The position numbers and the translations under genes were made by a program. Of a stretch of DNA of 55,396 nucleotides, positions 1-14,223 are shown piece after piece. This DNA comes from Thermoleophilaceae bacterium (GTDB taxonomy: Bacteria > Actinomycetota > Thermoleophilia > Solirubrobacterales > Thermoleophilaceae): contig JAICJR010000002.1 in assembly GCA_025928345.1 (NCBI GenBank), positions 1 to 55,396 of the forward strand, in the 5' to 3' direction. Below the pieces are notes generated by a model. It ran no database searches and was not told the origin of the DNA. It saw nothing but the letters and a program-made list of their open reading frames with translations. Within the stretch, counting starts at the first letter, position 1. The number at the start of each line of letters is the position of its first letter.

Positions 1-1210
1 AGTACCAGAGGTCCTTGGTGCGCTTGCGCCACTCATGCAGGTTCTCGGCCGTGGGCTCCTTGATTGCCGCGCTGTACGCGCGGCGTCCGCGCCTGTAGAT
101 CCGTTCCAGGCCCGGCTCGAGGGCATCGAAGCCGGGCTTGCGGAGCTGCCACCCTTCCACGCTCTCGCGAGCCGGGAGCAGGGTCGATTCGACACCGTGG
201 AGGGGCCCGCCATCGCCGTCCAGATCGGTACTGGCAGTGTCGCGCGCGCGCGCGAGTCCGGTCCGGAAGGCGCCGAGCTGGATCGCCCGGACCTCGAGCG
301 GGTAGCGCTTTGTCAGGCCGTCGAGGGACTCGATCAGCACCTGGCTGTCGCGCGACCCCGACAGCAGCCGGCCGGCATCGCGAAAGGCTTCGTTCTGACG
401 TTCGAATTCGACGTCGCCGAGCTCCCCGCGGACGAGGCGCGCGACCGCGCGCACGCGCTTGAGCGACTTGCGCGATTCGTGCACGGCCGTGCCCGGCTCT
501 TGGTCCGTGCGGCCCTCCGCGCGATCGAGCACCTCATCGATCTGGCCGAGCGCCACGCGCCGGATGCCCTCCGCCACCGGCTCCTCGGCACGCAGCCGGA
601 ACACGCGCTCGGCTCGCGCCCGGCTCTCGCGCGTGGCGAGACACTGGTTGCGGTACTCGGGATCTCCCGTGATCTCCCGGCCGAGCCAGTCCGGCGCCTG
701 GAACGCGGCGCTCGCCTCGAGTGTCGGGAACTCGACCTCGGCGACCGTGAGCCCCCTGAGCCAGCCGCCATACACGTCGAGCTCGATGCTCAGCCCGGCG
801 GCGCCCGCCGGAAGCACGTAGCGGCGCTTGCGACGCCGGCGGCCGGAGGTGAGCGGCCAGAGTGCGTCGAGGCTCGTCTCCGCGATGACGAGCTGCTGTT
901 CGATGCGCGCCTCGCCGGCACCCGCCTTGACGGTGAGCGTGGGCGGGCGCTCCCCATGCCGGCGCAGCCGCACCTCTACTGGGCCGTCGACCGCGAGGTA
1001 GCCCTGCTCGATCTCCTCGCTGGGCCGGCTCTCGAGGTCCGCGGGCAGCGCCTCGACAAGGTACTTGCGCTCGATCTCCAGTCCGTTAGAGCGGGCCGGG
1101 CGGGTCTTCGGCCGCCGGGCATCGAGCGCAACCGCCGCGCCCGCCGCCATCAGCGCGAGCCCGCTGAGCCGGTGTCTCCTGAGGACGCGTACGGCGTGCT
1201 GGTAGAGCAT
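1..1210 (-). CDS. CYTH-CHAD domain protein (C-terminus beyond window)
   Basis: I read this directly on the minus strand; the ORF track lacks it because no stop lies in the window. About 403 codons are visible. A short hydrophobic N-terminus is followed by a CYTH domain starting with the ExExK signature (EIERKYLVE, residues 45-53) and charged strands such as VEVRLRRHGERPPTLTVK. From about residue 210 there is a helical CHAD domain with its His-rich repeats (AVHESRKSLKRVRAVARLVR and HEWRKRTKDLWY). CYTH proteins bind or hydrolyse triphosphates and CHAD domains bind polyphosphate. The ATG lies 10 nt after the ATPase stop with GGTGG before it. Being the third gene after PPK2 supports a role in polyphosphate binding or turnover. 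Whether it has triphosphatase activity is inferred. Confidence 0.88.
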   Translation of the reverse strand, partial: MLYQHAVRVLRRHRLSGLALMAAGAAVALDARRPKTRPARSNGLEIERKYLVEALPADLESRPSEEIEQGYLAVDGPVEVRLRRHGERPPTLTVKAGAGEARIEQQLVIAETSLDALWPLTSGRRRRKRRYVLPAGAAGLSIELDVYGGWLRGLTVAEVEFPTLEASAAFQAPDWLGREITGDPEYRNQCLATRESRARAERVFRLRAEEPVAEGIRRVALGQIDEVLDRAEGRTDQEPGTAVHESRKSLKRVRAVARLVRGELGDVEFERQNEAFRDAGRLLSGSRDSQVLIESLDGLTKRYPLEVRAIQLGAFRTGLARARDTASTDLDGDGGPLHGVESTLLPARESVEGWQLRKPGFDALEPGLERIYRRGRRAYSAAIKEPTAENLHEWRKRTKDLWY

Positions 1211-1220
1211 GCCGTCCACC

Positions 1221-3935
1221 TCACCCGGTAGGGCGGCGCGCCACCCGCTTGCCGAGCTCCCAAAGCCCGAACAGCACCACGGCGGCGAGCAGCGCCAGGC
1301 CGAACTGCCCGGCCGTGAGCGGCCGCGTGCCGAGCAGCCGCTGCATCGCGTCCATCTGCGTGACGAGCACCGCCAGCACGATCTGGCCGAGCGCGGTGAA
1401 AGTGAGCGTCCGGTTGTCGAGCGTGTCGGACCTCACCGCCGAGAGCCAGATGCTGCGGCTCTCGAAGGCCGCTATGACGATCATCAACGAGAACGCCGTG
1501 AGCCCGATCGAGGAGCCCACCGCAACGCTGCCGTAGTGGGACTTTCCGAAGTAGATGAGGGCGTCGAGCACGATCGCCATGTACAGGCCCACGAGCCCCG
1601 CGGTGGCGAGCAGACTGCGCGTGACGATCGACTCGTCGCTCGGTCGCGGGCGCAGCTTCATCAGACCTGGCGTGGCCTTGTCCAGCCCGAGCGCCATGCC
1701 GAGCGGCGCGCTCACCAGGAAGTGGATCCACAGCACCTGCGGCGAGCTGAACGGCTGCCCCGCAGCGATGTTGAGCAGCGTCGCGCCGAGGAACGTGAGC
1801 ACGAACGCCACGAGCGTGATCAGCACGAAGCGGACGTACTTGCTCAGGTTGTCGTACACCTTGCGGCCCTGGGCCACCGCGTGCACGATCGTCGCGAAGT
1901 TGTCGTCGGACAGGATCATGCGGCCGGCGTTCTTCGCCACCTCGGTGCCGCTGCCCATCGCGATCCCGATGTGCGCGGCCTTGATCGCCGGCGCGTCGTT
2001 GACGCCGTCGCCGGTCATCGCCACAACCTCGCCCTTCTTCTTCAGCGTGTCGACCAGCAGCACCTTGTGCTCCGGCGCCACGCGGCCAACCACTCCGATC
2101 CGGTCGATCCGCGACAGCCGTTCCTCCTCGCTGAGCGCGGCGAACTCGGAGCCGAGGATCGCCTCCCCCTCGATGCCGAGTTGGCGCGCGATCGCCGTGC
2201 CCGTGACCACGTCGTCGCCCGTGACCATGCGCAGGCGGATGTGCGCGCCCTGCGCGTCGCGCACCGCGGGCTTCGACTCCTTGCGCGCGGGGTCCACCAT
2301 GCCCACGAGGCTCGTGAGCTCGAGCCCGTCGACGTAGCCGAGGAGGTCGCCATTCGGGTCGAACGAGCCCGCATCGAGGTCGTGCACGCCGGCCGCCATC
2401 ACGCGCAGCCCGCGCTTCTCGAGGCGCTTGACGTTCGCCTCGGTGTCCTGCTGCAGCCGGTCGTCCCAGGGCAGCCGCGTGCCGTCCGACAGAGCGCCGG
2501 ACGCGTGGCTCATCACGGCCGGCGCCGCACCCTTCACGAAGCAGCGCACGACCTGCCTGCCCGAGTCGTCCTCCGCGCGCGTGAATGCCGCCATCAGCTT
2601 GTACGTGGGGTCGAACGGGAGCGTGGCCAGGCGCGGATAGCGCTCGCGCGTGGCGTCGATGTCGAGTCCCGCCTTGCTGCCCAGCACCAGCAGCGCACCC
2701 TCGGTGGGATCGCCCACCACCTCGCCGTCCACGAGCTGCGCGTCGCTCGCGACGATGTAGGGAAGGATCGCCTGCTCGATCGTGGGGCTCGAGCCGGCGG
2801 CGTGGTGGACCTTCCCGTCGAGCGAGTAGCCGCCGCCGGAGATGGTGTAGCGGTCGCTCGGGTCGACCACCTCCACGGCGGTCATCTGGTTGAGCGTGAG
2901 CGTGCCCGTCTTGTCGGAGTTGATCGCGGACGTCGAGCCGAGCGTCTCCACAGAGCTCAGGTCCTTCACCACGGCGCCCTGCTTCGCGAGCTCGGACGCC
3001 CCGAGCGACATGATCACCTGGAGCACCGTGGGCATGGCCTCGGGGATCGACGCGATGGCGAGCGCCACCGCGCTCGTGAACAGCACGGTGCTGGACTGCC
3101 CGCGCTCCGCGCCCAGCGCGAACATCACGGCCATCGTGATCCCGGCGGCGCCGGCGATCCACAGTGTGAGCGTGTTGAGCTGACGCGTCAGCGGCGTCTG
3201 CTCCTTCGCCGTCGCGGCGAGCATGCCCGCGATCTTTCCCACCTGCGAGTCCGCGCCGGTGGCCGTGACGATGGCGACGCCGCTGCCATGCGTCACCGGG
3301 GTGTGCATGAAGGCCATGTTGATCTGGTCGCCAGGGGAGAGGTCCATGTCCTCGAGGGCGTCCGTCTCCTTCGCCACCGGGGCGCTCTCGCCGGTGAGCT
3401 CGGCCTCGTCTATCTGAAGGGCGCTCGCGTCGATGATCCGTGCATCCGCGGGCACCGCGCCCCCGGCGGCGAGCGTGATGACGTCGCCCACCACCACCTG
3501 GTCGGCTGGTATCTCGGCGTCTGAGCCGTCGCGAAGGACGCGCGCGCTGGCCTGCACCATCGACTTGAGCGCGTTCATCGCGCTCTCCGCCTTCCCCTCC
3601 TGGCGAAGCGCCACGACCGCGTTCAGCACCGTGATCAGAAGCAGCATCACCGCCGTGCTCCACTCCTGAATCGCGAGCGAGACGATCGCGGCGCCCACCA
3701 GGATGATCTGCATGTAACTCCGGTACTGGTCGACGAAGCGGCGCCAGGTGGGCACCTCGGCCTCGGCCGGCAGGGCGTTCGGGCCGTGGCTCCTCAGGAG
3801 CTCCGCCGCGCGCTCCGACGACAGGCCCGCCGTGGGATCCACACCGAGCCGGGCCGCCACGTCGTTCCCGGAGAGGGCGTACCAGCGGTTCGTCTGGCTG
3901 GTGGCGCGTGGAGCTCTCTGGACGGCCGTGGCCAT
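1221..3935 (-). CDS. P2-like cation-translocating P-type ATPase
   Basis: This 904-residue protein has the full P-type ATPase set: an N-terminal cation-ATPase domain, the TGES actuator loop, the phosphorylation site DKTGTLT, MTGDGVNDAPA in the P domain, and about ten membrane segments. The M4 motif reads PEAMP instead of the usual PEGLP, keeping the glutamate. The M6 segment reads LWIHFLVSAPLG where calcium pumps have an LWVN-L-TDG-P pattern, so the M6 Asn/Asp ligands are missing and the transported ion is uncertain. The start lies 4 nt after the PPK2 stop, so the two are cotranscribed from the class 1 promoter upstream of PPK2. The pump presumably moves a cation across the inner membrane using ATP. 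Confidence 0.9.
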   Translation of the reverse strand: MATAVQRAPRATSQTNRWYALSGNDVAARLGVDPTAGLSSERAAELLRSHGPNALPAEAEVPTWRRFVDQYRSYMQIILVGAAIVSLAIQEWSTAVMLLLITVLNAVVALRQEGKAESAMNALKSMVQASARVLRDGSDAEIPADQVVVGDVITLAAGGAVPADARIIDASALQIDEAELTGESAPVAKETDALEDMDLSPGDQINMAFMHTPVTHGSGVAIVTATGADSQVGKIAGMLAATAKEQTPLTRQLNTLTLWIAGAAGITMAVMFALGAERGQSSTVLFTSAVALAIASIPEAMPTVLQVIMSLGASELAKQGAVVKDLSSVETLGSTSAINSDKTGTLTLNQMTAVEVVDPSDRYTISGGGYSLDGKVHHAAGSSPTIEQAILPYIVASDAQLVDGEVVGDPTEGALLVLGSKAGLDIDATRERYPRLATLPFDPTYKLMAAFTRAEDDSGRQVVRCFVKGAAPAVMSHASGALSDGTRLPWDDRLQQDTEANVKRLEKRGLRVMAAGVHDLDAGSFDPNGDLLGYVDGLELTSLVGMVDPARKESKPAVRDAQGAHIRLRMVTGDDVVTGTAIARQLGIEGEAILGSEFAALSEEERLSRIDRIGVVGRVAPEHKVLLVDTLKKKGEVVAMTGDGVNDAPAIKAAHIGIAMGSGTEVAKNAGRMILSDDNFATIVHAVAQGRKVYDNLSKYVRFVLITLVAFVLTFLGATLLNIAAGQPFSSPQVLWIHFLVSAPLGMALGLDKATPGLMKLRPRPSDESIVTRSLLATAGLVGLYMAIVLDALIYFGKSHYGSVAVGSSIGLTAFSLMIVIAAFESRSIWLSAVRSDTLDNRTLTFTALGQIVLAVLVTQMDAMQRLLGTRPLTAGQFGLALLAAVVLFGLWELGKRVARRPTG

Positions 3936-3939
3936 GGGC

Positions 3940-4944
3940 TCAGCCGGCGGCCCCGCCTGCCACAGGAACGTCCTTTGCCCGGCCGTCGCCGTTTCCGGCC
4001 TTCCGGCGCAGCTCCGCCTCGAAGGGATCCGGCGCTGCGCCGTCAGGCGCCTCCGCCTCGAGTCCCCCCTTCACCTCCTGGAGCTGCTGACGCCTTTCGT
4101 CGCTCACCGCCGGGAAGCGCGGGTCGATCTCCATGAGCGTGTGGGCGAGCACCGCGGCCGCGCCGATCCGCATGAACCACTTCCGGTCCGCGGGGATCAC
4201 GTACCAGGGCGCCCACTCGGTGCTCGTGTGGGAGAGCGTCTCGGACATCGCCTTGCGGTAGTCGTCGAAGCACTCGCGCTCCCGCACGTCGGCGGCGGAG
4301 AACTTCCAGTTGTGGTCGGGCAGATCGATCCTCCGCAGAAAGCGCCGCCGCTGCTCCTCCTTGGACAGGTTCAGGAACAGCTTCACGATCCGGAAGCCGT
4401 TGTCTGTGAGGTAGCGCTCCCAGTCGTTGATCTCGCGGTAGCGCCTGTTCCAGATGTCGCCCTTCTTCGCCGCGCGGGGCAGCCTCTGGCGGTCGAGGTT
4501 CTCCGGGTGCACGCGCACCACGAGCGTTTCCTCGTAGTACGAGCGGTTGAAGATCCCGATCTCGCCGCGCGCCGGCAGCCGCTTCGCGTAGCGCCAGAGG
4601 AAGTCGTGGTCGAGCTCCTCGGCGGACGGCACCTTGAAGCCGTGGACGGACACGCCCTGCGGGTTCACCCCGCTCATCACATGCCGGATCGTCCCGTCCT
4701 TGCCGGCAGCGTCCAGAGCCTGGAGGACGAGCAGCACCCCCCAGGTGTCCTGCGCCGCCAGTCGTTCCTGATACTCCGCGAGGATCTTCACCCCTTCGGC
4801 GAGCAGCTTGCGCCCCTTGCGCTTCTTCTTGACTCCGGCCTTGAACGCCGGGTCGAAGTCCCGGCCGAGCTTCACCTTCGAGCCAGGCTCGACGCGAAAC
4901 GGCTCGATGAACTCTGCGATTCGATGCTGGGCGTCGTCGGCCAC
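3940..4944 (-). CDS. ppk2: Polyphosphate kinase 2 family protein
   Basis: This 334-residue protein is a PPK2-fold phosphotransferase. The Walker A-like loop is ALDAAGKDGTIRH (about residues 75-87) after LLVLQ, followed by VNPQGVSVHGFKVPS, the NRSYYEE Walker B/lid segment near residue 133, and the RRRFLRRIDLPDHNWKFS region typical of the family. PPK2 enzymes transfer phosphate between polyphosphate and nucleoside mono- or diphosphates, usually to regenerate ADP/ATP or GTP. The subclass, and so mono- versus diphosphate use, cannot be fixed by eye. It is the first gene of an operon with a P-type ATPase and a CYTH-CHAD protein. Its promoter is a class 1 element whose -10 (GATGCT) ends about 40 nt before the ATG. 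Confidence 0.93.
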   Translation of the reverse strand: MADDAQHRIAEFIEPFRVEPGSKVKLGRDFDPAFKAGVKKKRKGRKLLAEGVKILAEYQERLAAQDTWGVLLVLQALDAAGKDGTIRHVMSGVNPQGVSVHGFKVPSAEELDHDFLWRYAKRLPARGEIGIFNRSYYEETLVVRVHPENLDRQRLPRAAKKGDIWNRRYREINDWERYLTDNGFRIVKLFLNLSKEEQRRRFLRRIDLPDHNWKFSAADVRERECFDDYRKAMSETLSHTSTEWAPWYVIPADRKWFMRIGAAAVLAHTLMEIDPRFPAVSDERRQQLQEVKGGLEAEAPDGAAPDPFEAELRRKAGNGDGRAKDVPVAGGAAG

Positions 4945-4984
4945 CTGGCAGCTCCGGTTTCGGGGCGCGTTCTACGTCAGCCTG

Positions 4985-5029
4985 AGCATCGAGGCTGACC
5001 CCGCCCGCTTCATCACCCCGATCGGGTGA
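4985..5029 (-). promoter_or_regulatory. Class 1 stress promoter, PPK2 operon
   Basis: On the minus strand the 19-mer TCACCCGATCGGGGTGATG (5011-5029) contains the inverted repeat TCAYCC-N5-GGRTGA with one extra G. Exactly 33 nt after TCACCC is GATGCT (4985-4990) as the -10. The element overlaps the YihY stop codon, so it is a promoter embedded at the end of the upstream gene. Confidence 0.75.
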
Positions 5030-5846
5030 ACCAGGTTCCGCGGCGCTCGTGGAGCGTGGCATTGAGGAACATCGCCGCCACGAGCACGCGGGCCACGAGG
5101 AACAGCCCGACGAGCACGACGGTGGAGGCGCCGAGCGCCCCGTACAGCTTCGGGGACCTCTCGAGCTTGTCGGACAGGTAGTAGACGACGAACAGGTGGA
5201 TGCCGGTGAGGCCGCAGCCAACGAGCACCGCGCCCGGGAGCTCCGCCCTTGCGGCGAGACGCTCGGGCCGTGGCAGGAAGCTGAACGCGAGCAGGGCGAG
5301 CGCCAGGAAGGCCGCTCCTGCGCCGCCGGTGGCGAGCCACCCGAGGCCCGGGGCGTGGCTGCGGACCCAGGAGGCGATCGTCGTCGCGGTGAGGCCGAGC
5401 ACGAAGATGCCGGTGAACGCCGCGCTGGCGCGCAGCGGCCTTCGCAGCCGCCGCGGCTCGAGCTGCCAGGCGATGAACGCCGCCACCCGGAGGGCGCGGA
5501 CTGCGCCGATGCCGAAGTAGACGAGCAGGATCAGGCCCGCCGCGAGGAAGTACCAGCGCGCATGGGCGCCGCTCTGCACGGCAGCGGCCGCGGAGCGCGC
5601 CGCCACTCCGCTCAGCCCGAAGCTCTTCCCGGCGTCCACCAGGCTTTTCTGGCTCGACTCGACCCAGAAGCTGGCGGCGGCGGCCACCAGGAGCCCGAAC
5701 GCCACGAGCCAGAAGAAGAGCCGGTAGGCGAGCCCGCCGGCGAGCAGCGCCGCGCCGGACCGCTGCTCGCGCTCCATCGAGTCGAAGAAGGCGAGCGCCG
5801 CCGGCATGCGTCGCGCTCGGGCGACCGCCTGCTTGCTCTTGGTCAC
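5013..5846 (-). CDS. YihY/BrkB-family inner membrane protein
   Basis: The track ORF starts at 5945, but the class 1 -10 box (GACCAT, 5854-5859) lies 7 nt upstream of a GTG at 5846, so I place a leaderless start there (VTKSKQAVARAR). That gives 277 residues with about six hydrophobic helices. The family-typical first motif FFDSMEREQRSGAALLAGGLAYRLFFW is followed by segments around WYFLAAGLILLVYFGIGAVRAL and VLVGLFLVARVLVAAMFLNA. YihY/BrkB proteins were once called ribonuclease BN, but their function is unresolved; envelope roles are suspected. It lies directly upstream of the PPK2 operon on the same strand and shares its promoter class. Confidence 0.85.
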   Translation of the reverse strand: MTKSKQAVARARRMPAALAFFDSMEREQRSGAALLAGGLAYRLFFWLVAFGLLVAAAASFWVESSQKSLVDAGKSFGLSGVAARSAAAAVQSGAHARWYFLAAGLILLVYFGIGAVRALRVAAFIAWQLEPRRLRRPLRASAAFTGIFVLGLTATTIASWVRSHAPGLGWLATGGAGAAFLALALLAFSFLPRPERLAARAELPGAVLVGCGLTGIHLFVVYYLSDKLERSPKLYGALGASTVVLVGLFLVARVLVAAMFLNATLHERRGTWFTRSG

Positions 5847-5853
5847 CGGGGCG

Positions 5854-5898
5854 ATGGTCCCGCCGCCGTCGCGGAAGCGCGTCGCCCGGATTGGGTGA
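5854..5898 (-). promoter_or_regulatory. Class 1 stress promoter, YihY gene (leaderless)
   Basis: TCACCCAATCCGGGCGACG (5880-5898, minus) is followed after exactly 33 nt by the -10 GACCAT (5854-5859) and, 7 nt later, the GTG start. The second half-site is degenerate (GGGCGA). It lies back to back with the class 2 promoter at 5911-5950. Confidence 0.7.
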
Positions 5899-5910
5899 CC
5901 CTGGGCCACT

Positions 5911-5950
5911 GGTGCATGCACCCCCGGTGCTGGCAGGCGGGCCACATTGT
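5911..5950 (+). promoter_or_regulatory. Class 2 promoter, RsbW-like gene
   Basis: The perfect 12-bp palindrome GGTGCATGCACC (5911-5922) is followed by GGCAGGCGGGCCACATTGTC, with the presumed -10 CATTGT at 5945-5950. The spacing from palindrome to CATTG is identical at three other sites (25154, 23604, 31002), and the 25154 site matches over about 40 bp. Confidence 0.7.
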
Positions 5951-6007
5951 CCGGCCCCGGCGCTGCTGCGAACCTCGTTACAACGATCCCGTCTCCGCGT
6001 CGCCAAT

Positions 6008-6379
6008 TTGACCTACAGCGCCACCCACGCCTCCCGCCAGTTGCGCTTCGAGGTGCGCACCGGCGGCAACCCGGGAGCGCTCGCCCGCCGCCAGCTCGAC
6101 TATGTGGCGAACGAGATCGACCACTCGACGTTCGCGCGGCTCCGGCTGCTCGTCAGCGAGCTGGTGAACCGCGCGGCAGGGGATCCCGAGCGTGTGTCCG
6201 TGGAGGTGTCGGTGACGGTGTCGCAGGCCGCGATCCGCGCGGTGGTCCTGGACGACTCCTGCGGCGAGCCGCGCGTCCTTGACTGGGCGCTCCTGCTGGT
6301 CGGCCGCATCGCGGACCGCTGGGGCGTGGGGCAGGGCATCTGGTTCGAGCTCGACACGCCGCGGCGCCAGGCGGCGTAG
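6008..6379 (+). CDS. RsbW-like HATPase-fold protein with degenerate ATP boxes
   Basis: I chose a TTG start (LTYSATHASRQLRFEV) because the class 2 promoter lies inside the longer track ORF, giving 123 residues. The pattern follows anti-sigma/anti-anti-sigma-type kinases: RRQLDYVANEIDHSTFARLRLLVSELVNRAA corresponds to the first ATPase helices, and IADRWGVGQGIWFEL to the C-terminal strand. The N-box is ELVNRAA rather than ELVTNA, and the glycine-rich G1/G2 boxes are not recognisable, so ATP binding is doubtful. Such proteins usually bind sigma factors or antagonists in stress signalling; that role is inferred from fold alone. It is convergent with the channel gene, 3 nt apart. Confidence 0.65.
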   Translation: MTYSATHASRQLRFEVRTGGNPGALARRQLDYVANEIDHSTFARLRLLVSELVNRAAGDPERVSVEVSVTVSQAAIRAVVLDDSCGEPRVLDWALLLVGRIADRWGVGQGIWFELDTPRRQAA

Positions 6380-6382
6380 CGA

Positions 6383-7129
6383 TCAGGCTCGCGGCGGGGG
6401 CTCGCCGCGCGTCTGCTGCTTTGAGCGCACCCACTCGCCTGGGCGCCAGAGGCTCACCAGCCCGGCGATCATGGTGACGAGGAAGATCTGGCCGAGCAGC
6501 ATCTCGAGCCCGGCGAACATCTTGCCGGGCTGGCCCGCGGGCACGAGGTTGCCGTAGCCGGTCGTCGTGAGCGTGGTGAGGCTGAAGAAGAGGTAGTCGC
6601 CGGTACCGAGGTGCGCGGAGCTGCCGAAGAGCGGACCGGGCTGGAGCCGGTCGAGCCCCACGTAGAGAGAGGTGAAGAGCAGCGCGAAGATCAGGTACAC
6701 GCTGATTGCGCCGAGGATCGTCCGGAAGCCCACCTCCGCCTCGCTGATCACGGCGCGCAGCACGGCGAAGGCCGCCGCCGCGAGGAGGGCCGTCTGGAGG
6801 AGCGCGCTCAGCGCTAGCGGCGGAGCATCATCCGATGCCGCCGCGATCGCCGCGAGCAGCACCGCGAGCGCGGACAGGCGCCCAGCCCAGCGCACGAAAC
6901 GGTGCGCGATGCCGGCCGTGGCGAGCGCCAGGGTGGCGCTCGCGCAGGTCAGCGCCGCGATAGGCACGGCGGTCCAGCCGTGATATGGGGTCACGGACGC
7001 GAGCACGTAGGTAACGAGGACGAGGACGAGGACGAGGCCGAACGCGTTCGCGATCCGCTCCGCGGGCTCAGTCCACCGCTCGCCCGGCCGGCGTGAAAAG
7101 CTCGGCGGCTCGCGCGCGGTTTGCGGCAT
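6383..7129 (-). CDS. Two-pore-helix potassium channel family protein
   Basis: The start at MPQTAREPP is set by the class 1 -10 box 7 nt upstream; the track ORF begins 417 nt too early. The protein has 248 residues with several N-terminal hydrophobic helices, then the Ion_trans_2 pore. A helix (SVYLIFALLFTSLYVGL) leads to the pore helix and selectivity filter (FFSLTTLTTTGYGNLVP), and a final helix (GLEMLLGQIFLVTMIAGLVSLW). TTGYGN is the canonical K+ filter. No cytoplasmic ligand-binding domain is visible. It probably acts in K+ flux or membrane potential control under osmotic stress, in line with its promoter class. Confidence 0.9.
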   Translation of the reverse strand: MPQTAREPPSFSRRPGERWTEPAERIANAFGLVLVLVLVTYVLASVTPYHGWTAVPIAALTCASATLALATAGIAHRFVRWAGRLSALAVLLAAIAAASDDAPPLALSALLQTALLAAAAFAVLRAVISEAEVGFRTILGAISVYLIFALLFTSLYVGLDRLQPGPLFGSSAHLGTGDYLFFSLTTLTTTGYGNLVPAGQPGKMFAGLEMLLGQIFLVTMIAGLVSLWRPGEWVRSKQQTRGEPPPRA

Positions 7130-7136
7130 GCCGGCG

Positions 7137-7181
7137 ATGATCGATGCGCCCGCAGCCGCCCGCGTCATCCCGATCGGATGA
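7137..7181 (-). promoter_or_regulatory. Class 1 stress promoter, K+ channel (leaderless)
   Basis: TCATCCGATCGGGATGACG (7163-7181, minus) contains a perfect inverted repeat TCATCC-N5-GGATGA-type dyad. The -10 GATCAT (7137-7142) lies 33 nt beyond TCATCC and 7 nt before the ATG. It sits just upstream of the end of the sensor kinase gene on the same strand. Confidence 0.78.
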
Positions 7182-7196
7182 TTCGCAGCCGCCGCG

Positions 7197-8777
7197 TCAG
7201 GCGGCGAGGGAAGCCGGGATCGACATCTCGAGACGGGTGCCGCTTCCCACCGGGCTGTCGATCGCCATCGTGCCGCCCACGGCCTCCACGCGGTCCCGCA
7301 GGCCCTGGAGACCAAGGCCGCCCGCCTCGGTCGCGCCTCCCACGCCGTCGTCGGCCACGACGAGACGCAGCAGCCCGGCGGACCAAGCCCCGCTGATGCG
7401 AACCCGTGACGCGCGCGAGTGCTTCTGAGCGTTCGCCACGGCCTCGACCAAGAGGAAGTAGGCGGTGGCCTCCGCGGCTTCCTCAAAGCGCTCCGGGGGC
7501 AACTCGAGCACGACAACCGGAACGCTCGACCTCGCCGCCAGCTCATTCACGGAGCGGGCGAGCCCGAACTTCTTGAGCACGGGTGGATGCAATCCGTGCG
7601 CCAGCTCCCGGAGCTCCTCGATCGCGCCGTACACATCGTGCTCGGCGCGACGGAAGAGGGCCGCGGTGTTGGCGGGCTGCGCCTGCGCCTCCTCGGCGGC
7701 GATCCCGAGATACACAGCGAGCGCCGTGAGCCGCTGTTGCGCCCCGTCGTGCAGGTTCTGCTCGATGCGTCGCCGCTCGCCGTCGGACGCCTGCATCAAC
7801 CGCGCGCGCGAGGCGCGCAGCCGATTGGCGAGCCTGTCGCGCTCGGCCACGACGGCGGCCAGCGACAGCGTCGAGAGGGCCGCTACGGCGATGTAGAGCT
7901 GGGTCGCGAGGACGCTGCGAGTGATCGAGTGAAAGACGAACGGACCCTCGTAGTGGGTGGTGGCCCACACCGCGTGGCCGCTCGCGATGGCGACGGCGAG
8001 CGTGGCGCCGCGCTCGCCGAAGCGCAGCGCGGCGAGAATCAGGGCGGGGAACACGAGGTACGTCACGGGGTGGTTGCTCCGGAATGAGAGCTCGCTCAAG
8101 CCGACGATCGCGATCACGAGCAACACGCCCTCGGCCCAGCGCTGCCTGAGCCAGGTCAGCGATGGCGGCCGGTGCCACGCGAGCACGAGCGGTACGACTA
8201 TGAGCGCGCCCGAGAGGTCGCCGAGCCACCACGTGCGCCACAACTCCGGGAGAGCCCCGCCGTCCACCACGTGTCCGAGCCGGAGCGAGAAGAGCCCGAT
8301 GGTGGCGCTCACGGCCGTTCCCGCCGCAAGCGCAGCCAGCAGCCGCGTCAGGCGCCGGATGCTCCGAAGCGGCGCGCCGTCGGGCACGAGCCGGCGCAGC
8401 AGCACGACCGCGACCAGGACCTCCAGCGTGTTGCCGGCGCTCTGTCCGACAGCGGATCCGAGCGGCAGGGTGGCGTAGCTGTTCGCCAGCAGGTCTCCCA
8501 GTACCACGCCCGGCCAGAAGCGAAGGCCTCCGAGATACAGGAACGCGATGCCCACCCCCACCGGCAGCCACACGATCGACGCCACCGGGCCGGTGAACTT
8601 GAGCGCGTAGCCGAGCTGCGCGCTCCCGTAGTAGAGCCCCACGAGCAACGCGACGCTCATGGGGTAGCGCCAGCTCGCCGGGATCGTTGCGCCGATCGAC
8701 CGCCCGCCGACGCGGGATGCGGTGCCGGACGGGACGACCCGGGACGCCAGTGGGGCACTGGCCATGCGGGTCAGCAT
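7197..8777 (-). CDS. MASE1-type membrane histidine kinase (NarL-family kinase)
   Basis: This 526-residue protein starts with about eight membrane helices resembling a MASE1 sensor (VASIVWLPVGVGIAFLYLGG, FWPGVVLGDLLANSYATLP, LWRTWWLGDLSGALIVVPLVLAW). A HisKA_3 dimerisation/phosphoacceptor segment follows (RRRIEQNLHDGAQQRLTALAVYLG, His near residue 345), then a HATPase_c domain with an N-box (LLVEAVANAQKHS) and G boxes (VADDGVGG, GGLGLQGLRDRVEAVGG). It autophosphorylates and passes phosphate to a NarL/LuxR-type regulator; the nearest is the response regulator at 10801, transcribed upstream on the same strand. A dyad overlaps the start codon. Confidence 0.9.
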   Translation of the reverse strand: MLTRMASAPLASRVVPSGTASRVGGRSIGATIPASWRYPMSVALLVGLYYGSAQLGYALKFTGPVASIVWLPVGVGIAFLYLGGLRFWPGVVLGDLLANSYATLPLGSAVGQSAGNTLEVLVAVVLLRRLVPDGAPLRSIRRLTRLLAALAAGTAVSATIGLFSLRLGHVVDGGALPELWRTWWLGDLSGALIVVPLVLAWHRPPSLTWLRQRWAEGVLLVIAIVGLSELSFRSNHPVTYLVFPALILAALRFGERGATLAVAIASGHAVWATTHYEGPFVFHSITRSVLATQLYIAVAALSTLSLAAVVAERDRLANRLRASRARLMQASDGERRRIEQNLHDGAQQRLTALAVYLGIAAEEAQAQPANTAALFRRAEHDVYGAIEELRELAHGLHPPVLKKFGLARSVNELAARSSVPVVVLELPPERFEEAAEATAYFLLVEAVANAQKHSRASRVRISGAWSAGLLRLVVADDGVGGATEAGGLGLQGLRDRVEAVGGTMAIDSPVGSGTRLEMSIPASLAA

Positions 8778-8792
8778 GTCACTTATGACATG
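8775..8792. promoter_or_regulatory. 18-bp dyad overlapping kinase start codon
   Basis: CATGTCA-CTTA-TGACATG is a perfect 7-bp inverted repeat filling most of the 21-nt gap between the HdeD gene and the kinase start. Its last ATG is the kinase initiation codon. It could be an operator or an RNA hairpin limiting translation of the kinase. Confidence 0.45.
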
Positions 8793-8798
8793 TGAGTG

Positions 8799-9368
8799 CT
8801 AGTGCTTCGCCCGGCGATAGAGCGAACGGACTACGAGCGACTCGGCGATCTGCACGGCGCCCTGGGCACACAGCGCGATGCCGGTGAGCAGCGCGAGCGT
8901 CTTCACGCTGATCTCGGGGGACGAGATGATCGCCGTCCCGAGGGCCACAAGCACCACTCCGCGCACGAGCGAGAACAGCCGCCGGGGGCCGACGATCGCG
9001 CGCGCCAGGTCCAGCGCCCCGGTGACGATGAAGAAGGCGCCGAGCGCGAGCGACACCACCACCACGCTCCCCGACGGATTCCGAAGCACCACGATCCCGG
9101 CGATGAGCGCGACCACGCCCAGGAGAAAGCCATCCACGGTGCGCGTCTGATCGGAGAGCGCGCGCACCATCAGCAACACCGCCGCCGCCAGCAGGTAGAT
9201 GCCGGCGATCACGGCCAGCGCCTTGAGGGAGCGGCTCGGCTCGGACAGCACCAGCGCGCCCATCGCCACGCCGAAGCCCCCCGTGATTGTGAGCAGGTAC
9301 CAATACTGCTCGATCGCCGGCGGCTCTCTGAGCGTGTGGGCCGCCTCGGGCATGTAGAGCTCGGCCAT
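8799..9368 (-). CDS. HdeD family membrane protein (DUF308)
   Basis: This 189-residue protein has six closely spaced hydrophobic helices in three repeated pairs with glycine-rich turns (LLTITGGFGVAMGALVLSEPSRSLKALAVIAGIYLLAAAVLLMVRAL, LLGVVALIAGIVVLRNPSGSVVVVSLALGAFFIVTGALDLARA). This is the DUF308/HdeD pattern. The E. coli HdeD protein is linked to acid resistance at high cell density; here the job is inferred only as membrane stress response. Its start overlaps the short gap after the upstream membrane protein (stop at 9376), so the two are cotranscribed and probably continue into the kinase gene 21 nt downstream. Confidence 0.85.
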   Translation of the reverse strand: MAELYMPEAAHTLREPPAIEQYWYLLTITGGFGVAMGALVLSEPSRSLKALAVIAGIYLLAAAVLLMVRALSDQTRTVDGFLLGVVALIAGIVVLRNPSGSVVVVSLALGAFFIVTGALDLARAIVGPRRLFSLVRGVVLVALGTAIISSPEISVKTLALLTGIALCAQGAVQIAESLVVRSLYRRAKH

Positions 9369-9375
9369 GGCTCGC

Positions 9376-10743
9376 TCAGCTCTTCAACGCGAGGCCGCCG
9401 CCGCGACGCCTGTCCACCCAGGCGCGCAGGTTGTGCATGCCGTCGCCGGCGCGGGCGTCGGGAAACTCGCGCGCGGCCTGGCGGCGGAGCAGCTCGATAC
9501 CGAGCACGAGCAGCGCGGCGATGATGAGGACCGGGATGAGGTGCCGGAAGGCGGGGGTGGGGCCCCACGCGATCACAAGCAGATAGGCGAGCCCCGCCGC
9601 TCCGTACACGCGCACGGGATGGTCGCGCAGCGACGGCGCGAGCGCCTGCCGCGTCGACAGCGCCGGACGGCTGGGCCCGGAGAGCCACGCGGCCACCACG
9701 ATCAACAGCCCGTAGATCACGAACGCAAGTGCGATCGCCCGCAGGAGCGACGTGCCGATTGCCCAGGCGTCGTGCGCGGCGGGCCGGACCGACTCGTTTC
9801 GCACCAGGGCGTCGACGATCGAGTCCCCCGCCACACGGCGAATGAGCAGAACGGCCACGCCAAGCCCGAAGAAGCACCAGCCCGTCGAGCGCAGCGCGAT
9901 CCGCCGCCATCCGCGCGCCAGCCAGATGGCGAGCGCGAACAGGCCGAACGAGAGCACGGTGAACACGATCGAGAGGCTCTTGATGGCGTTCGCGATGTCC
10001 TGCGCGGTCTTCAGCTGCTTGGCTCGCATCACCACGATCTGCCCCGCAGCGGGCGGAAGCGTCACGCCGAGCCGCTGCTGCGCAGCCCCGCGGATCTTCG
10101 CCCGCGTGCCAGGACCTAGCTTCGCGCGTGCGGCCGCCACCTGCTCCTCGATCCCGAGGGTGCTGGCGAGTTGAGTCACGAGGTTGTGGAGGTTGAGCAC
10201 CACCTCACCATTCGCGGTGGACACGACGGCACCGCCGCCATTGAGGATCCGGATGAGCTGAGCGTGGGCGTTCTGGTTGGCCAACCTCCACGCGTCCTGC
10301 ACTCGCGGCCTCGCCAGGAGCTGAGGCGCGGCACGATCGGCCAGCCCGTGCAGTCCGGCAGCCGCCGGCCCGGCCAGCCCTGCGAACTGCGCGGGGAGAG
10401 CATTCCGCAGCTCTCCGGGCACATCCACGTTCGTGAAGAGCGTGTCCACCATGTACGCCCCGACCGCGCGCTGGATGCGCTGATCGGCGAGGAGCCGCGA
10501 GCTCGTGCTCGTCCAGTTGCCGGTGTCGAGCGCCTGGCGCCTAACCCACGTGGCCATCATGGCCAGGAGGCCGGTGATCACTGCGAGACTGAGTATCGCG
10601 GCCACCGCGCCCCGTCGCCGGCGCTGTGCGGTCGCGGCCCCCGGTTCCGGGGCGCCGTTGGGCGCGGACTGGCCCGGCGCGGGTGAGGTGGTGGTGGCGT
10701 GGGCGATGCGGCCCAGCATCTGCCCCGCCGCGAGCGCGGACAA
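9376..10743 (-). CDS. Polytopic membrane protein with long extracytoplasmic domain
   Basis: This 455-residue protein is not one I can name. After a basic, proline-rich N-terminus there is one membrane helix (AVAAILSLAVITGLLAMMATWV, about residues 46-67). A region of about 190 residues follows, probably outside the membrane, containing NWTSTSSRLLADQRIQRAVGAYMVDTLFTNVDV. About five further helices close the protein (SIVFTVLSFGLFALAIWLARG to LIPVLIIAALLVLGIELLRR). Similar proteins with the NWxxTSxxLLxDxxIQxAV segment occur in actinobacterial genomes as uncharacterised membrane proteins. It lies between the response regulator and HdeD in an apparent minus-strand operon. Confidence 0.7.
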   Translation of the reverse strand: MSALAAGQMLGRIAHATTTSPAPGQSAPNGAPEPGAATAQRRRRGAVAAILSLAVITGLLAMMATWVRRQALDTGNWTSTSSRLLADQRIQRAVGAYMVDTLFTNVDVPGELRNALPAQFAGLAGPAAAGLHGLADRAAPQLLARPRVQDAWRLANQNAHAQLIRILNGGGAVVSTANGEVVLNLHNLVTQLASTLGIEEQVAAARAKLGPGTRAKIRGAAQQRLGVTLPPAAGQIVVMRAKQLKTAQDIANAIKSLSIVFTVLSFGLFALAIWLARGWRRIALRSTGWCFFGLGVAVLLIRRVAGDSIVDALVRNESVRPAAHDAWAIGTSLLRAIALAFVIYGLLIVVAAWLSGPSRPALSTRQALAPSLRDHPVRVYGAAGLAYLLVIAWGPTPAFRHLIPVLIIAALLVLGIELLRRQAAREFPDARAGDGMHNLRAWVDRRRGGGLALKS

Positions 10744-10800
10744 GGGCGCCCGCAGGTGTCCGGCGGTGAGGGGCGCACGAGCGGTGCGCGCAGCCCGGCG

Positions 10801-11520
10801 TCAGTCGTCGACGCCGGCGCCGAGGAAGATGAGCGCGGCCTTCACGCGCCGGCTCACGTCATCGGGGTTGTCGAGGTTCAGCTTCATGAAGATCGCGTTG
10901 ATGTGCTTCTCCACCGCGCGCTTTGTGAGGAAGAGCGAGCCGGCGATCGCTGCGTTGCTCTTCCCCTGCGCGATTTCCGCGAGCACCTCGTACTCGCGCG
11001 GGGTGAGCTCGGACAGCGGCGACGCCTCCTCGCGCCTGCGTGCCTCGACGAGCACCTCCACCACCCTGGCGTCGATCACGGACTCACCCTGCGCGACCGC
11101 CTTGATTGCGGCCACCAGCTCGGCGCGGTCGTGCACGCGCTCCTTCAGCAGATATGCGCGCCGCGCCGACCCGCGCTCGAGCAGCGCGAGCGGGTAGCTG
11201 GGCTCGGCGTACTGGCTGAGCACAACCACGCCGACCTCGGGATGCGTGTCGCGCATCTCGTGCGCCGCGCGGATGCCCTCGTCGCTTCCGGAGGGCGGCA
11301 TGCGGATATCCGTGACCACGACGTCCGGCCGCTCCTCGTCGACGGCCTGCAGGAGCGACTTGCCGTCCCCCACCGCCCGCACCACCTCGACCTCGGGCGC
11401 ACCCGCGAGGATGACCTCGATCGCCTCCCGCACAAGGTAGGCGTCCTCGGCCACGACCACCCGAAGCGGGCGCTCCTGGTCTGACTGTTCGGAATCCTGG
11501 TCAAGCGTTGCGCGCTGCAC
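10801..11520 (-). CDS. NarL/FixJ-type response regulator
   Basis: This 239-residue protein has a receiver domain (residues about 19-140) with the acidic pair in VVVAEDAYLVREAI, the phosphoacceptor Asp in VVVTDIRMPP, and the Lys in AYLLKERV. A LuxR-type HTH follows (LTPREYEVLAEIAQGKSNAAIAGSLFLTKRAVEKHINAIFMKL). GTG is the start. It probably pairs with the MASE1 kinase at 7197, four genes down on the same strand. A TTGACT-N18-TACCCT promoter lies 50-80 nt upstream. LuxR-type regulators bind inverted repeats around -42, so it is one candidate for the class 1 or class 2 activator. That link is speculative. Confidence 0.93.
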   Translation of the reverse strand: MQRATLDQDSEQSDQERPLRVVVAEDAYLVREAIEVILAGAPEVEVVRAVGDGKSLLQAVDEERPDVVVTDIRMPPSGSDEGIRAAHEMRDTHPEVGVVVLSQYAEPSYPLALLERGSARRAYLLKERVHDRAELVAAIKAVAQGESVIDARVVEVLVEARRREEASPLSELTPREYEVLAEIAQGKSNAAIAGSLFLTKRAVEKHINAIFMKLNLDNPDDVSRRVKAALIFLGAGVDD

Positions 11521-11566
11521 GGACGCCCCTCTTTGACTGTCTCGCCGTCCGGCGATCCTGCTCTGG

Positions 11567-11596
11567 AGGGTAGCCCCCGACTATTCGAACAGTCAA
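11567..11596 (-). promoter_or_regulatory. Housekeeping-type promoter of response regulator
   Basis: On the minus strand TTGACT (11591-11596) and TACCCT (11567-11572) are separated by 18 nt, matching -35/-10 spacing. TTTGACTGT recurs inverted at 11532-11540, so the divergent spacer holds a 9-bp repeat pair (TTTGACTGT...ACAGTCAAA) 48 nt apart. Confidence 0.55.
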
Positions 11597-11723
11597 ACGG
11601 TTTCACCGAGTTTGGTCCAGGCCTCACCGGCGGTCTCGTGCGCGCACCCTGGGAGCGCGGGCCCCGCATCCGTAAGGTCGCGATGGGCCGGGAGCTCGCC
11701 GAGTTCACACGAAAGGAGGCCGT

Positions 11724-12071
11724 ATGGCCGCAGTAGCACAGGAGACTCACGAGACGTTGGCGGGCCTCTCTGCCGGCGACGTCGATGCGCTCGGCGAGAT
11801 CCTCAGCATGCGCGACGAGTACCGGGAGACCACCGGGCTCGACTCGAGGACGTTCGCGCTGGTGAAGATCGCGGCGCTGATCGCGCTGGACAGCCCGCCG
11901 GCGTCCTACGTATGGCAGGTGGCAAACGCCCTCGACGAGGGCGCGACCCCCGAGGACGTGCTCGGTGTGCTGCGGGCGATCGCTCCGCAGGTGGGCGGGC
12001 CCAGGGTCGTAGCGGCCGCGCCGGAGATCATGATCGCTCTCGGGCTCTCGCTGCCCGAGGGCCCGGAGTGA
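11724..12071 (+). CDS. Carboxymuconolactone decarboxylase-like protein lacking CxxC
   Basis: This 115-residue all-helical protein follows the CMD/AhpD pattern: DSRTFALVKIAALIALDSPPASYVWQVANALDEGATPEDVLGVLRAIAPQVGGPRVVAAAPEI aligns with the family core. The CxxC pair that makes AhpD an alkylhydroperoxidase is absent; there is no cysteine in the protein, so redox activity is unlikely and the function is unknown. A strong ribosome-binding site (AAAGGAGG) precedes the ATG. It is followed after 10 nt by the SHOCT-domain gene, and a hairpin terminator closes the pair. A GTGCGCGCAC palindrome lies about 85 nt upstream, resembling class 2 promoters at imperfect spacing. Confidence 0.75.
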   Translation: MAAVAQETHETLAGLSAGDVDALGEILSMRDEYRETTGLDSRTFALVKIAALIALDSPPASYVWQVANALDEGATPEDVLGVLRAIAPQVGGPRVVAAAPEIMIALGLSLPEGPE

Positions 12072-12081
12072 GGGGGCTGAC

Positions 12082-12351
12082 ATGCCACTAATGAGAAGAC
12101 GTCCCCTCCTGAGGGCTGCCGCCGTCGGCGGCAGCGCGTATCTCGCGGGCAAGAGGGCGCAACAGGGCGCCCAGGGCGGTCCGGCAGCGGGCGCTGCCCC
12201 GGCGCCTCCAAACGGTGGATCGACGACTGACAGCGGGGGTCTCTCCAGGGATGCGATGGACCAGCTCAAGTCACTCGCCCAGCTCCATGATCAGGGCATT
12301 CTCACCGATCAGGAGTTCGACGAGCAGAAGGAGAAGGTCCTCAGGTCCTGA
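12082..12351 (+). CDS. Small SHOCT-domain protein
   Basis: This 89-residue protein has a basic N-terminus (MPLMRRRPLLRAAAVGGSAYLAGK) that may be a short membrane anchor, a low-complexity Ala/Pro/Gly linker, and a C-terminal SHOCT domain (LKSLAQLHDQGILTDQEFDEQKEKVLRS, residues about 60-89). SHOCT domains are short C-terminal helices found in many actinobacterial membrane or stress proteins, thought to mediate oligomerisation. It lies 10 nt after the CMD-like gene and is presumably cotranscribed with it. Confidence 0.85.
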   Translation: MPLMRRRPLLRAAAVGGSAYLAGKRAQQGAQGGPAAGAAPAPPNGGSTTDSGGLSRDAMDQLKSLAQLHDQGILTDQEFDEQKEKVLRS

Positions 12352-12380
12352 GGCCGGCTCCCTCGAACTTGTCCCCGGCG

Positions 12381-12402
12381 GCGGCCCCGATTGCGGGGCC
12401 GC
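12381..12402 (+). terminator. Hairpin terminator after SHOCT gene
   Basis: GCGGCCCC-GATTGC-GGGGCCGC is a perfect 8-bp stem followed by TGTCGTTT. It lies 30 nt after the SHOCT stop codon and before the class 1 promoter of the next gene. Confidence 0.7.
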
Positions 12403-12427
12403 TGTCGTTTGGGGCGACGGTCCAGGA

Positions 12428-12472
12428 TCACCCCGTTCGGATGATGCCGGTGCGCTGGGCGGCTCGTACGTT
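12428..12472 (+). promoter_or_regulatory. Class 1 stress promoter, DUF1269 gene
   Basis: TCACCCCGTTCGGATGATG (12428-12446) carries TCACCC-N5-GGATGA. The -10 TACGTT (12467-12472) lies exactly 33 nt after TCACCC. The transcript would have a leader of about 50 nt ending in an AGGAGG ribosome-binding site. Confidence 0.78.
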
Positions 12473-12527
12473 GGTCACGGCGTACGCGAACGCGTGCGCG
12501 ACCCCGTCTCAAGCTAGGAGGATTTCT

Positions 12528-13025
12528 ATGGCGGAGCTCATCGCCATCGGCTACCCCGACGAGACGACCGGCTCCCTCGCGGCCGAGGAGGTCAGGCGTC
12601 TCTCGAGCGAGCTGATCATCGAGCCCGACGCTGTCGCCGTGATCTCACGGGACAAGGAGGGCAAGTACCACGTTCACACCTCCCACCATGCGGTTGGAGG
12701 CGGCGCGACGTGGGGAATGTTCTGGGGGTTCCTGTTCGGCCTCCTGTTCTTCGTCCCGGTGTTCGGGATGGCTGTGGGGGCCGGCCTCGGCGCCCTGTTC
12801 GGCAAGATCGAGAAGAGCGGCGTCAACAAGCAGTTCCAGGAGCAGGTCCGGGACATGCTTCAGCCCGGGAACTCGGCGCTCTTCCTGGTTGTCGAGAAGG
12901 TCACGCCGGACAAGGCCATTGAGGGGCTCAGCCAGTACGGGGGGACCGTGCTCAAGACGTCCCTGTCGAAGGAGTCCGAGCACGAGCTCCAACAGGCCCT
13001 GCACGGCGAGGCCGTGCCCGCTTAG
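12528..13025 (+). CDS. DUF1269/DUF6325-type membrane-associated stress protein
   Basis: The ATG at 12528 follows AGGAGG by 5 nt; the track ORF extends upstream through the promoter. The 165-residue protein starts with MAELIAIGYPDETTGSLAAEEVRRL, a DUF1269 hallmark. It has a central Gly-rich double hydrophobic segment (GGATWGMFWGFLFGLLFFVPVFGMAVGAGLGALFGKIE) and a C-terminal ferredoxin-like half (SALFLVVEKVTPDKAIEGLSQYGGTVLKTSLS). Members occur widely in actinobacteria and are often labelled general stress proteins; the biochemical role is unknown. It is expressed from a class 1 promoter and closed by a strong terminator hairpin. Confidence 0.85.
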   Translation: MAELIAIGYPDETTGSLAAEEVRRLSSELIIEPDAVAVISRDKEGKYHVHTSHHAVGGGATWGMFWGFLFGLLFFVPVFGMAVGAGLGALFGKIEKSGVNKQFQEQVRDMLQPGNSALFLVVEKVTPDKAIEGLSQYGGTVLKTSLSKESEHELQQALHGEAVPA

Positions 13026-13041
13026 TCGCACCGGGGTCCTC

Positions 13042-13069
13042 GGCCGGGCTGCGCCGGTGCAGCCCGGCC
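13042..13069 (+). terminator. Strong hairpin terminator after DUF1269 gene
   Basis: GGCCGGGCTGC and GCAGCCCGGCC form a perfect 11-bp stem with a 6-nt loop, starting 17 nt after the stop codon. There is no U tract, which is usual for high-GC actinobacterial terminators. Confidence 0.75.
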
Positions 13070-13108
13070 CTGGCCTCCCGCCTGAGATACCGACACGAGG
13101 AGATTTCC

Positions 13109-13534
13109 GTGAAGCCTCTGATCGTCATCTGCGTCGCGGCAGCGGCGCTCACGGTCGCCGCGTGCGGCGAGTCCGCCCAGCAGAAGGCCGAGAAGCAGGT
13201 CTGCAGCGCGCGCTCGGACATCCAGAAGCAGGTGAACGAGCTGAAGACGCTCACGCCGGCGACCGCGACGTCCGACGGCGTGAAGAACAACCTGAGTGCC
13301 ATCCGTGACGATCTGAAGAAGATCGCGGATGCGCAGCCGCAGTTGAGCGACCAGCGCAAGGCGGAGGTCAAGACGGCGAACGAGAAGTTCGTCTCCGAGT
13401 TCCAGTCGGTGGCCGGCGACGTCGGCAAGAGCCTGTCCGCAAGCGGCGCGCGGACACAGCTCCAGACGGCGCTCCAGCAACTCGCCGCCGCATACCAGTC
13501 CGCGTTCTCCAACTTGGACTGCGGCGGCAGCTGA
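13109..13534 (+). CDS. Small secreted lipoprotein
   Basis: This 141-residue protein starts at GTG after a GAGGAG ribosome-binding site. It has a lipoprotein signal peptide with a lipobox ending in cysteine (ALTVAACGES, Cys near residue 19). The mature part is almost entirely helical and charged (QKAEKQVCSARSDIQKQVNELKTL, NNLSAIRDDLKKIADAQPQL), with a second cysteine near residue 32 and one near the end that could pair. It is not a family I can name. It sits 14 nt before the MgtC gene and is probably cotranscribed with it. Confidence 0.75.
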   Translation: MKPLIVICVAAAALTVAACGESAQQKAEKQVCSARSDIQKQVNELKTLTPATATSDGVKNNLSAIRDDLKKIADAQPQLSDQRKAEVKTANEKFVSEFQSVAGDVGKSLSASGARTQLQTALQQLAAAYQSAFSNLDCGGS

Positions 13535-13548
13535 GCCGGGCGCCCCTC

Positions 13549-14223
13549 GTGCAGCTCGACACGGCCGACTACATTTTGCGGGTGACCGCGGCCGGCGGGC
13601 TCGGCGCGGTGATCGGGATCGAGCGCGAGTCGCGCAACCAGCTCGCCGGCGTCCGCACGCACGCGCTCGTGGCCACCGGCGCCGCGATCTTCACCCTCGG
13701 GGGGGCGTTCGGGTTCCCGGGGCTCCACCGGGGCCCCAACGTCGATCCGATGCGAGTGGCCGCGCAGATCGCCTCGGGCATCGGCTTCATCGGCGCCGGG
13801 ACGATCATCCGCGACCGCGGCTCCGTCCGCGGTATCACCACGGCGGCGGCGCTATGGGTCAGCGCGGCGGTCGGGCTTGCGGCCGGCGCCGCGCTCTGGG
13901 GGCTCGCGATCTCGGGCGCGGTTGTCACGCTGCTCGTGCTGGTGGTGCTCAGGCCCATCAGGTCGCGCCTGCTCACGTTCACGAGCCCGCGCTACACCGT
14001 GAAGGTGGAATACCAGCGCGGCCACGGCACGCTTGGCCCGCTGCTCGACGCGATCAACGACGCTGGCGGGCACGTGGAGGACCTGTCGATCGATGACGAC
14101 GCGAACGGTCGCCGGACCGTGACGCTCGACGTGCGCATCCACGACGACGAGGACCTTCGCGAGGCGGTGCGCCTCGTGTCGGAGCGTGATGAGGTCGCGC
14201 GCTGCACCGTCCACCGAAGGTGA
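13549..14223 (+). CDS. MgtC/SapB family membrane protein
   Basis: This 224-residue protein starts at GTG. The N-terminal MgtC domain has four to five helices with the conserved motifs GLGAVIGIERESRNQLAGVRTHALVATGAA and ASGIGFIGAGTIIRDRGSVRGITTAAALWVSAAVGLAAG. The C-terminal cytoplasmic part (residues about 145-224) resembles an ACT-like fold (YTVKVEYQRGHGTLGPLLDAINDAGGHVEDLSID). MgtC proteins modulate membrane ATPases and support survival at low Mg2+ or inside host cells; for environmental bacteria the role is unclear. It shares the operon with the lipoprotein and converges on the DUF7144 gene. Confidence 0.92.
   Translation: MQLDTADYILRVTAAGGLGAVIGIERESRNQLAGVRTHALVATGAAIFTLGGAFGFPGLHRGPNVDPMRVAAQIASGIGFIGAGTIIRDRGSVRGITTAAALWVSAAVGLAAGAALWGLAISGAVVTLLVLVVLRPIRSRLLTFTSPRYTVKVEYQRGHGTLGPLLDAINDAGGHVEDLSIDDDANGRRTVTLDVRIHDDEDLREAVRLVSERDEVARCTVHRR

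Follow-up and report, generated by a model that had tools for sequence, protein, structure and literature searches.

The left end of the window (the whole stretch of DNA analyzed, 55,396 nucleotides of a Thermoleophilaceae contig) raises the question of why a polyphosphate kinase gene should stand directly beside the gene for a P-type ATPase. The first-pass annotation had read three genes there, encoding a PPK2, the ATPase, and a CYTH-CHAD protein, and had proposed that they share one class 1 promoter and that the pump is tied to polyphosphate as a counter-ion store. The coordinates of the three genes were confirmed, as were their families by Pfam and PDB 2fbl, and all three lie on the minus strand. 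PPK2 is encoded at 3940-4944 from a GTG start (Pfam PPK2, 210 bits; TIGR03709 above cut-off). A gap of 4 nt (3936-3939) separates it from the ATPase gene at 1221-3935, which encodes the full P-type ATPase domain set by Pfam and is assigned here to a PPK2-linked, P2A-like clade on the basis of Pfam, NCBIfam, a clade support of 100, an AlphaFold model, and the catalytic residues. After a further gap of 10 nt (1211-1220), the CYTH-CHAD gene occupies 2-1210 when read from an ATG (or 2-1219 from a GTG) and is truncated where the contig stops; the draft genome has 317 contigs and a completeness of 88%.

A fourth gene on the minus strand, for a BrkB/YihY-like membrane protein (5013-5945), stops 68 nt ahead of the PPK2 start. 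A Pfam search with this gene itself gave no match, and its product is 65% identical to that of L063:11184-12209, the gene adjoining PPK2 in G001, a genome of the same genus, which matches Pfam BrkB at 1.5e-17. Because of the common strand, the 68-nt spacing, and the orthologue beside PPK2 in G001, this gene is probably the first of the same transcription unit, making four genes. The single promoter proposed for the three genes was not borne out, since a sigma-70-type scan of positions 1-6300 found none and the fourth gene lies upstream. Between the BrkB-like gene and PPK2, at 4976-4999, lies a perfect 8-nt inverted repeat, GTCAGCCT-N8-AGGCTGAC; the overlap of these two genes in G001 leaves no room for it at that place. 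When conserved DNA words were sought upstream of PPK2, the best candidate fell within coding sequence, at the end of the upstream gene. Sites for the dormancy regulator OsdR/DevR upstream of PPK2 showed no enrichment over shuffles (35/49 versus 0.65 expected and 25/49 versus 0.54), and the paper on the OsdR regulon names no ATPase or polyphosphate gene. Next to the operon, positions 6383-14223 encode a K+ channel, a MASE1 histidine kinase with a LuxR-type regulator, a DUF308 protein, a DUF1269 protein, and a member of the MgtC family, and this stretch is mostly kept in G001.

The arrangement was then followed across genomes. In G001, the PPK2, ATPase, and CYTH-CHAD genes occur in identical order. 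When the last 220 residues of the ATPase were searched against 399 genomes of the class, identities broke sharply: nine genomes reached at least 51%, a second set lay at 33 to 40%, and ordinary P2A pumps did not exceed 30%. Scanning GTDB species by one genome each added 44 clade members, from Streptomyces, Kitasatospora, Embleya, Streptacidiphilus, and Nonomuraea. In a tree from a quick search, with support by SH-aLRT and without bootstrap, the members formed one clade (SH-aLRT 100), adjoining the second set on the SPCA side of P2A. PPK2 was found directly upstream on the same strand at 48 of 51 assessable clade loci, which span the class of the window, Streptomyces, Kitasatospora, Embleya, and Nonomuraea, versus 0 of 20 ordinary P2A ATPases of the same class. 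The Fisher p value for this linkage was 8e-15, to be read as strong rather than exact because many of the 51 loci come from related streptomycetes and are not independent. The aligned parts of the two genes were 8 to 263 nt apart at the 48 linked loci, and the order of PPK2 then ATPase with short gaps held down to about 62% ATPase identity. Since the order is kept in G001 and the adjacency is so unequal between the clade and the controls, it exceeds what chance would give.

One further linked case, in G097, was obtained by rejoining two contig ends, and the broken loci L083 and L118 were left out of the count. An ATPase occurring elsewhere without PPK2, which the first-pass annotation had named as evidence against the link, was found in a minority of cases. 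A clade ATPase (66% identical) without PPK2 is encoded on a Streptomyces plasmid (L175:6953-9673, NZ_CP108047.1), near IS21 and Lsr2-like genes, and G294 has the two genes unlinked, on separate contigs. The remaining exception is G372, where PPK2 lies 2 kb away in divergent orientation with a SulP gene between. Within the class (399 genomes), an orthologous PPK2 with at least 67% identity accompanied the ATPase in 9 of 9 genomes and occurred in 6 of the 390 that lack the ATPase; among 397 genomes of the phylum, both genes occurred in the same 3 genomes, and none had one alone. The pairwise divergences of PPK2 and ATPase were correlated at r = 0.92, and at 0.84 within the actinomycetes alone. 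The PPK2 and ATPase genes travel as a unit.

Apparent fusions of the two genes were considered separately. Giant ATPases of 1,100 to 1,270 aa in several Streptomyces were rejected as PPK2-ATPase fusions, being gene-calling artefacts made of separate reading frames. At L083:9068-10654 (Streptomyces luteolifulvus), an in-frame joint connects PPK2 residues 1-243 to ATPase residues 608-902; most of both genes is missing, so a functional fusion was rejected in favor of a deletion joint (or an assembly error).

The third gene does not belong to the conserved unit, which consists of PPK2 and the ATPase. The three-gene order proposed on first pass holds in G001, where a CYTH-CHAD orthologue 58% identical to that of the window occupies the same place, and CYTH-CHAD adjoins the pair only in this one genus; CHAD was therefore rejected as a conserved member. 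The CHAD domain scored 79.6 bits against a Pfam cut-off of 25.6, with the contig end cutting the gene at position 187 of 228 in the CHAD model. The CYTH half matched PDB 2fbl (NE1496) at an E value of 1.4e-23 and has an ExExK-type start, EIERK at 45-49, that aligns with 2fbl and is followed by CHAD. An N-terminal triphosphate-tunnel domain like NE1496 with a C-terminal CHAD domain is shared with other CYTH-CHAD (TTM-CHAD) proteins, but the window gene follows a P-type ATPase, a case not found for known CYTH-CHAD genes in the literature searched. CHAD binds polyphosphate, and CHAD genes elsewhere adjoin genes for polyphosphate enzymes (PMC6537752); Acidithiobacillus has the gene row folD-ppk-parA-CHAD (PMC10892726). 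No link among CHAD, polyphosphate, and a P-type ATPase was found in the literature searched.

The class of a PPK2 is marked by the residue after Walker B, which is Asn in class I, Gly in class II, and Glu in class III (PMC8776046, PMC11641546). The window PPK2 has the class III Glu (NRSYYE), and NRS[HY]YE was found in 49/49 sequences examined. Its Walker A motif is DAAGKD, with D[AS][AG]GKD in all 49 of the linked PPK2s. The closest solved structure was 6an9/6ang (299 bits), the class III PPK2 of Cytophaga hutchinsonii (species according to PMC8776046). Enzymes of class III use polyphosphate to convert AMP or ADP to ATP, and their synthesis of polyphosphate is at least 1,000 times weaker (PMC8776046). 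On these signatures, the window PPK2 and the linked PPK2s are of class III and are predicted to phosphorylate AMP and ADP with polyphosphate. They share Walker A and the Glu after Walker B with the class III PPK2s of Meiothermus ruber, C. hutchinsonii, and Deinococcus radiodurans, their closest solved relatives, but form a separate orthologue group (at least 64 to 67% identity) tied to the ATPase gene. Other PPK2s of the same genomes were only 30 to 36% identical to the ATPase-linked PPK2. PPK1, the maker of polyphosphate, was present in 10 of the 11 ATPase-bearing genomes.

The TGES, DKTGT, KGA, and TGDGVND columns of the ATPase were invariant in 31 aligned sequences, placing it in the P-type ATPase superfamily, and the catalytic residues Asp341, Glu183, and Lys468 were present wherever clade sequences cover them. 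The AlphaFold model (pLDDT 83.8) adopts the SERCA/SPCA fold and shows a break in the M4 helix around Glu299 (residues 297-300); its best Foldseek matches were SERCA and SPCA (TM about 0.8). Domain order, catalytic motifs, the M4 sequence PEA(M/L)P, and fold are thus shared with the P2A Ca2+/Mn2+ ATPases (SERCA, SPCA/PMR1, and LMCA1), whereas the replaced Asn and Glu of M5 and Asn and Asp of M6, the scores below cut-off, and the PPK2 linkage set the window ATPase apart. No NCBIfam equivalog cut-off was reached, with 498.5 of 798.3 bits for the PMR1-type and 483.5 of 703.4 bits for the SERCA-type model. Against the P3A plasma-membrane H+-ATPases, the score for TIGR01647 was likewise too low (387.6 of 615.5 bits), and M6, reading WIHFLVSAP, is without the NDG Asp motif. 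Placed by phylogeny, as the first-pass annotation had advised, the ATPase was taken in by no group of known specificity, whether by the NCBIfam cut-offs or by the tree. Because the defining ligands are missing and the curated cut-offs are not attained, it should not be classified with the Ca2+ ATPases.

The ion site was compared among 53 clade members, 20 ordinary P2A-like ATPases, LMCA1, and SPCA1. The M4 core (residues 293-306, AIASIPEAMPTVLQ; 3018-3059, minus strand) contains Glu299, the sole retained acidic cation ligand, and Glu was found at this position in 52 of the 53 members. The motifs first described were confirmed within IPEAMP in M4 and WIHFLVSAPLG in M6. The PEAMP motif is not atypical, as LMCA1 has PEAL, nor is loss of the M6 Asp by itself, since 11 of the 20 ordinary P2A-like ATPases in this class also lack it. 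In the M5-M6 segment (residues 699-745; 1701-1841, minus strand), the ligand positions of SERCA are occupied by Leu708, Phe711, His738, and Ser742, which we take to correspond to N768, E771, N796, and D800, respectively, in SERCA numbering. The absence of the M6 Asn and Asp ligands therefore stands, and both M5 ligands, overlooked on first pass, are gone too. At the M5 site I Asn and Glu positions, Leu was found at 708 in 53/53 and Phe or Tyr at 711 in 53/53, with Leu and Phe replacing both ligands in 52 to 53 of the 53 sequences; SPCA1 also lacks this Asn and Glu and has Ser and Ala there. The M6 Asn position was His in 49 members and Asn in 4, while the M6 Asp position was Asn in 45, Ser in 5, and Asp in 3. 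Polar residues in or next to the membrane segments were conserved in the clade at Gln306 (52/53), Glu825 (50/53), and His738 (49/53). Some members differ at the ion site, with Thr in M4 in G057 and G097 and the M6 Asn/Asp kept in three sequences, so that ion specificity may not be uniform across the clade. In the sister clade (L072-L077 and L073/L234), M4 reads PTGLP and the M6 Asp position is Gln or Asp; these P2A-like ATPases keep almost no acidic ligand, and L072 follows an NhaC antiporter.

Other ion transport genes were found around the pair and beside class III PPK2 genes (PPK2-III) elsewhere. A SulP/STAS transporter adjoins or lies near PPK2-ATPase in about half of the loci. These neighbors fall into at least three lineages, with identities to the window SulP of about 70%, 41%, and 34%, which suggests that SulP was recruited repeatedly. 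The window SulP/STAS anion transporter (28759-30483, plus strand; Pfam Sulfate_transp and STAS) is 70% identical over 566 aa by blastp to L091, a SulP encoded directly after the ATPase in Streptomyces; at about 24 kb from the ATPase it is only a possible partner of the pump, and G001 has no SulP in the corresponding stretch, though the surrounding genes are conserved. The only other recurrent flanking product was a small protein carrying a three-helix dimerization domain (9/89). With an ATPase of the second set, G221 has the same-strand row PPK1-PPK2-III-ATPase (L234:5-5251), and G265 has PPK2-ATPase. Three genomes without the clade ATPase have other ion movers beside PPK2-III. In G148 (L232 and L233), each of two PPK2-III copies is convergent with a P3A plasma-membrane-type H+-ATPase, which takes the neighbor position there; in G378 (L228:524-2926), a CPA1 cation/proton antiporter lies 9 nt downstream of PPK2-III; and in G367, a CPA2 antiporter is near it.

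The pairing of PPK2 with an unusual ATPase across many actinobacteria suggests that the pump can draw on the polyphosphate reserve. The tie of the pump to polyphosphate metabolism proposed on first pass is strongly supported by the adjacency, the co-occurrence, the co-divergence, and the gene row of G221; its further claim, of a counter-ion store, is not well supported. Our tentative reading, to which we give close to an even chance, is of a polyphosphate-backed ion pump, in which PPK2-III tops up from polyphosphate the ATP used by the P-type ATPase. It is based on the strict pairing, the class III direction, the presence of PPK1, the lost divalent-cation ligands, and the other ion movers beside PPK2-III. 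The ATPase would move a cation across the cytoplasmic membrane by the normal phosphoenzyme cycle. That cation is more likely to be a monovalent one or H+ than Ca2+, since M5 and M6 have lost the Ca2+/Mn2+ ligands, leaving only the M4 Glu with the M6 His or Asn. Made together with the pump, the class III PPK2 would rephosphorylate ADP and AMP from polyphosphate, and the pump would thereby remain active upon failure of respiration or growth. In the genus of the window, the CYTH-CHAD protein would probably hold the system at polyphosphate and trim short chains, and in Streptomyces the SulP anion transporter would often join the unit. We infer that the two genes are co-expressed and their products coupled, functionally or physically, and the same holds for the ion and its direction. 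A stronger form, which we consider unlikely, is a dedicated unit, perhaps a physical complex, fueled by polyphosphate and not by the respiratory ATP pool, with a re-made site (Glu299, Gln306, the M6 His or Asn, and Glu825) and an ion specificity new to the P2 subgroups.

The strongest rival is the co-location of two stress genes. PPK2-III and the ATPase would then be expressed and transferred together, each useful alone, with no direct coupling of the pump to ATP from polyphosphate. The products of PPK2 are diffusible, so that adjacency is no proof of coupling, and the K+ channel, MASE1 kinase, DUF308 protein, and MgtC around the window locus fit a stress neighborhood, as do the orphan clade ATPase on the Streptomyces plasmid and a Thiothrix plasmid on which a remoter ATPase (40%) stands without PPK2 among universal stress proteins, NhaD, an antiporter, and SulP. 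Beyond PPK2, the ATPase, and SulP, however, the flanks share almost nothing, which argues against a large common island, and the closely spaced PPK2-ATPase order, which persists to about 62% ATPase identity, also speaks against this explanation, which we regard as possible but doubtful. It is improbable that the ATPase is a degenerate pump, acts in regulation, or moves a non-ion substrate such as a lipid or polyamine, as P4/P5-type pumps lost their ion sites. The replacement of the M5 ligands by Leu and Phe and of the M6 Asp by Asn or Ser (50/53) would fit such a change, but the M4 Glu is retained, M4 is unwound in the model, the catalytic residues are all intact, and the newly conserved Gln306, Glu825, and His738 suggest a re-made ion site, not decay. 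Least probable is the counter-ion store, in which the pump would balance the cations that neutralize polyphosphate (Ca2+, Mg2+, and Mn2+), loading or clearing these ions in step with polyphosphate synthesis or use. In its favor, polyphosphate is bound by CHAD (PMC6537752), whose gene follows the pump by 10 nt in the genus of the window, PPK1 adjoins in G221, and polyphosphate consumption frees cations that need clearance, but CHAD is not conserved beside the pair, a class III PPK2 degrades rather than builds polyphosphate (PMC8776046), and the M5/M6 divalent-cation ligands are lost in nearly the whole clade.

The component families of the polyphosphate-backed pump are all known; the PPK2-ATPase pairing and the altered ion site of the clade are without description in the literature searched, and an operon of PPK2 with a P-type ATPase was not described in the titles and abstracts of that literature. 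The analysis delimits a clade of P-type ATPases for which known signatures do not reveal the ion. Its members in culturable Streptomyces and Kitasatospora make knock-outs and purified-protein assays feasible. For class III PPK2 in actinobacteria, it offers a testable proposal, namely that a membrane pump may be kept going on stored polyphosphate when ATP falls.
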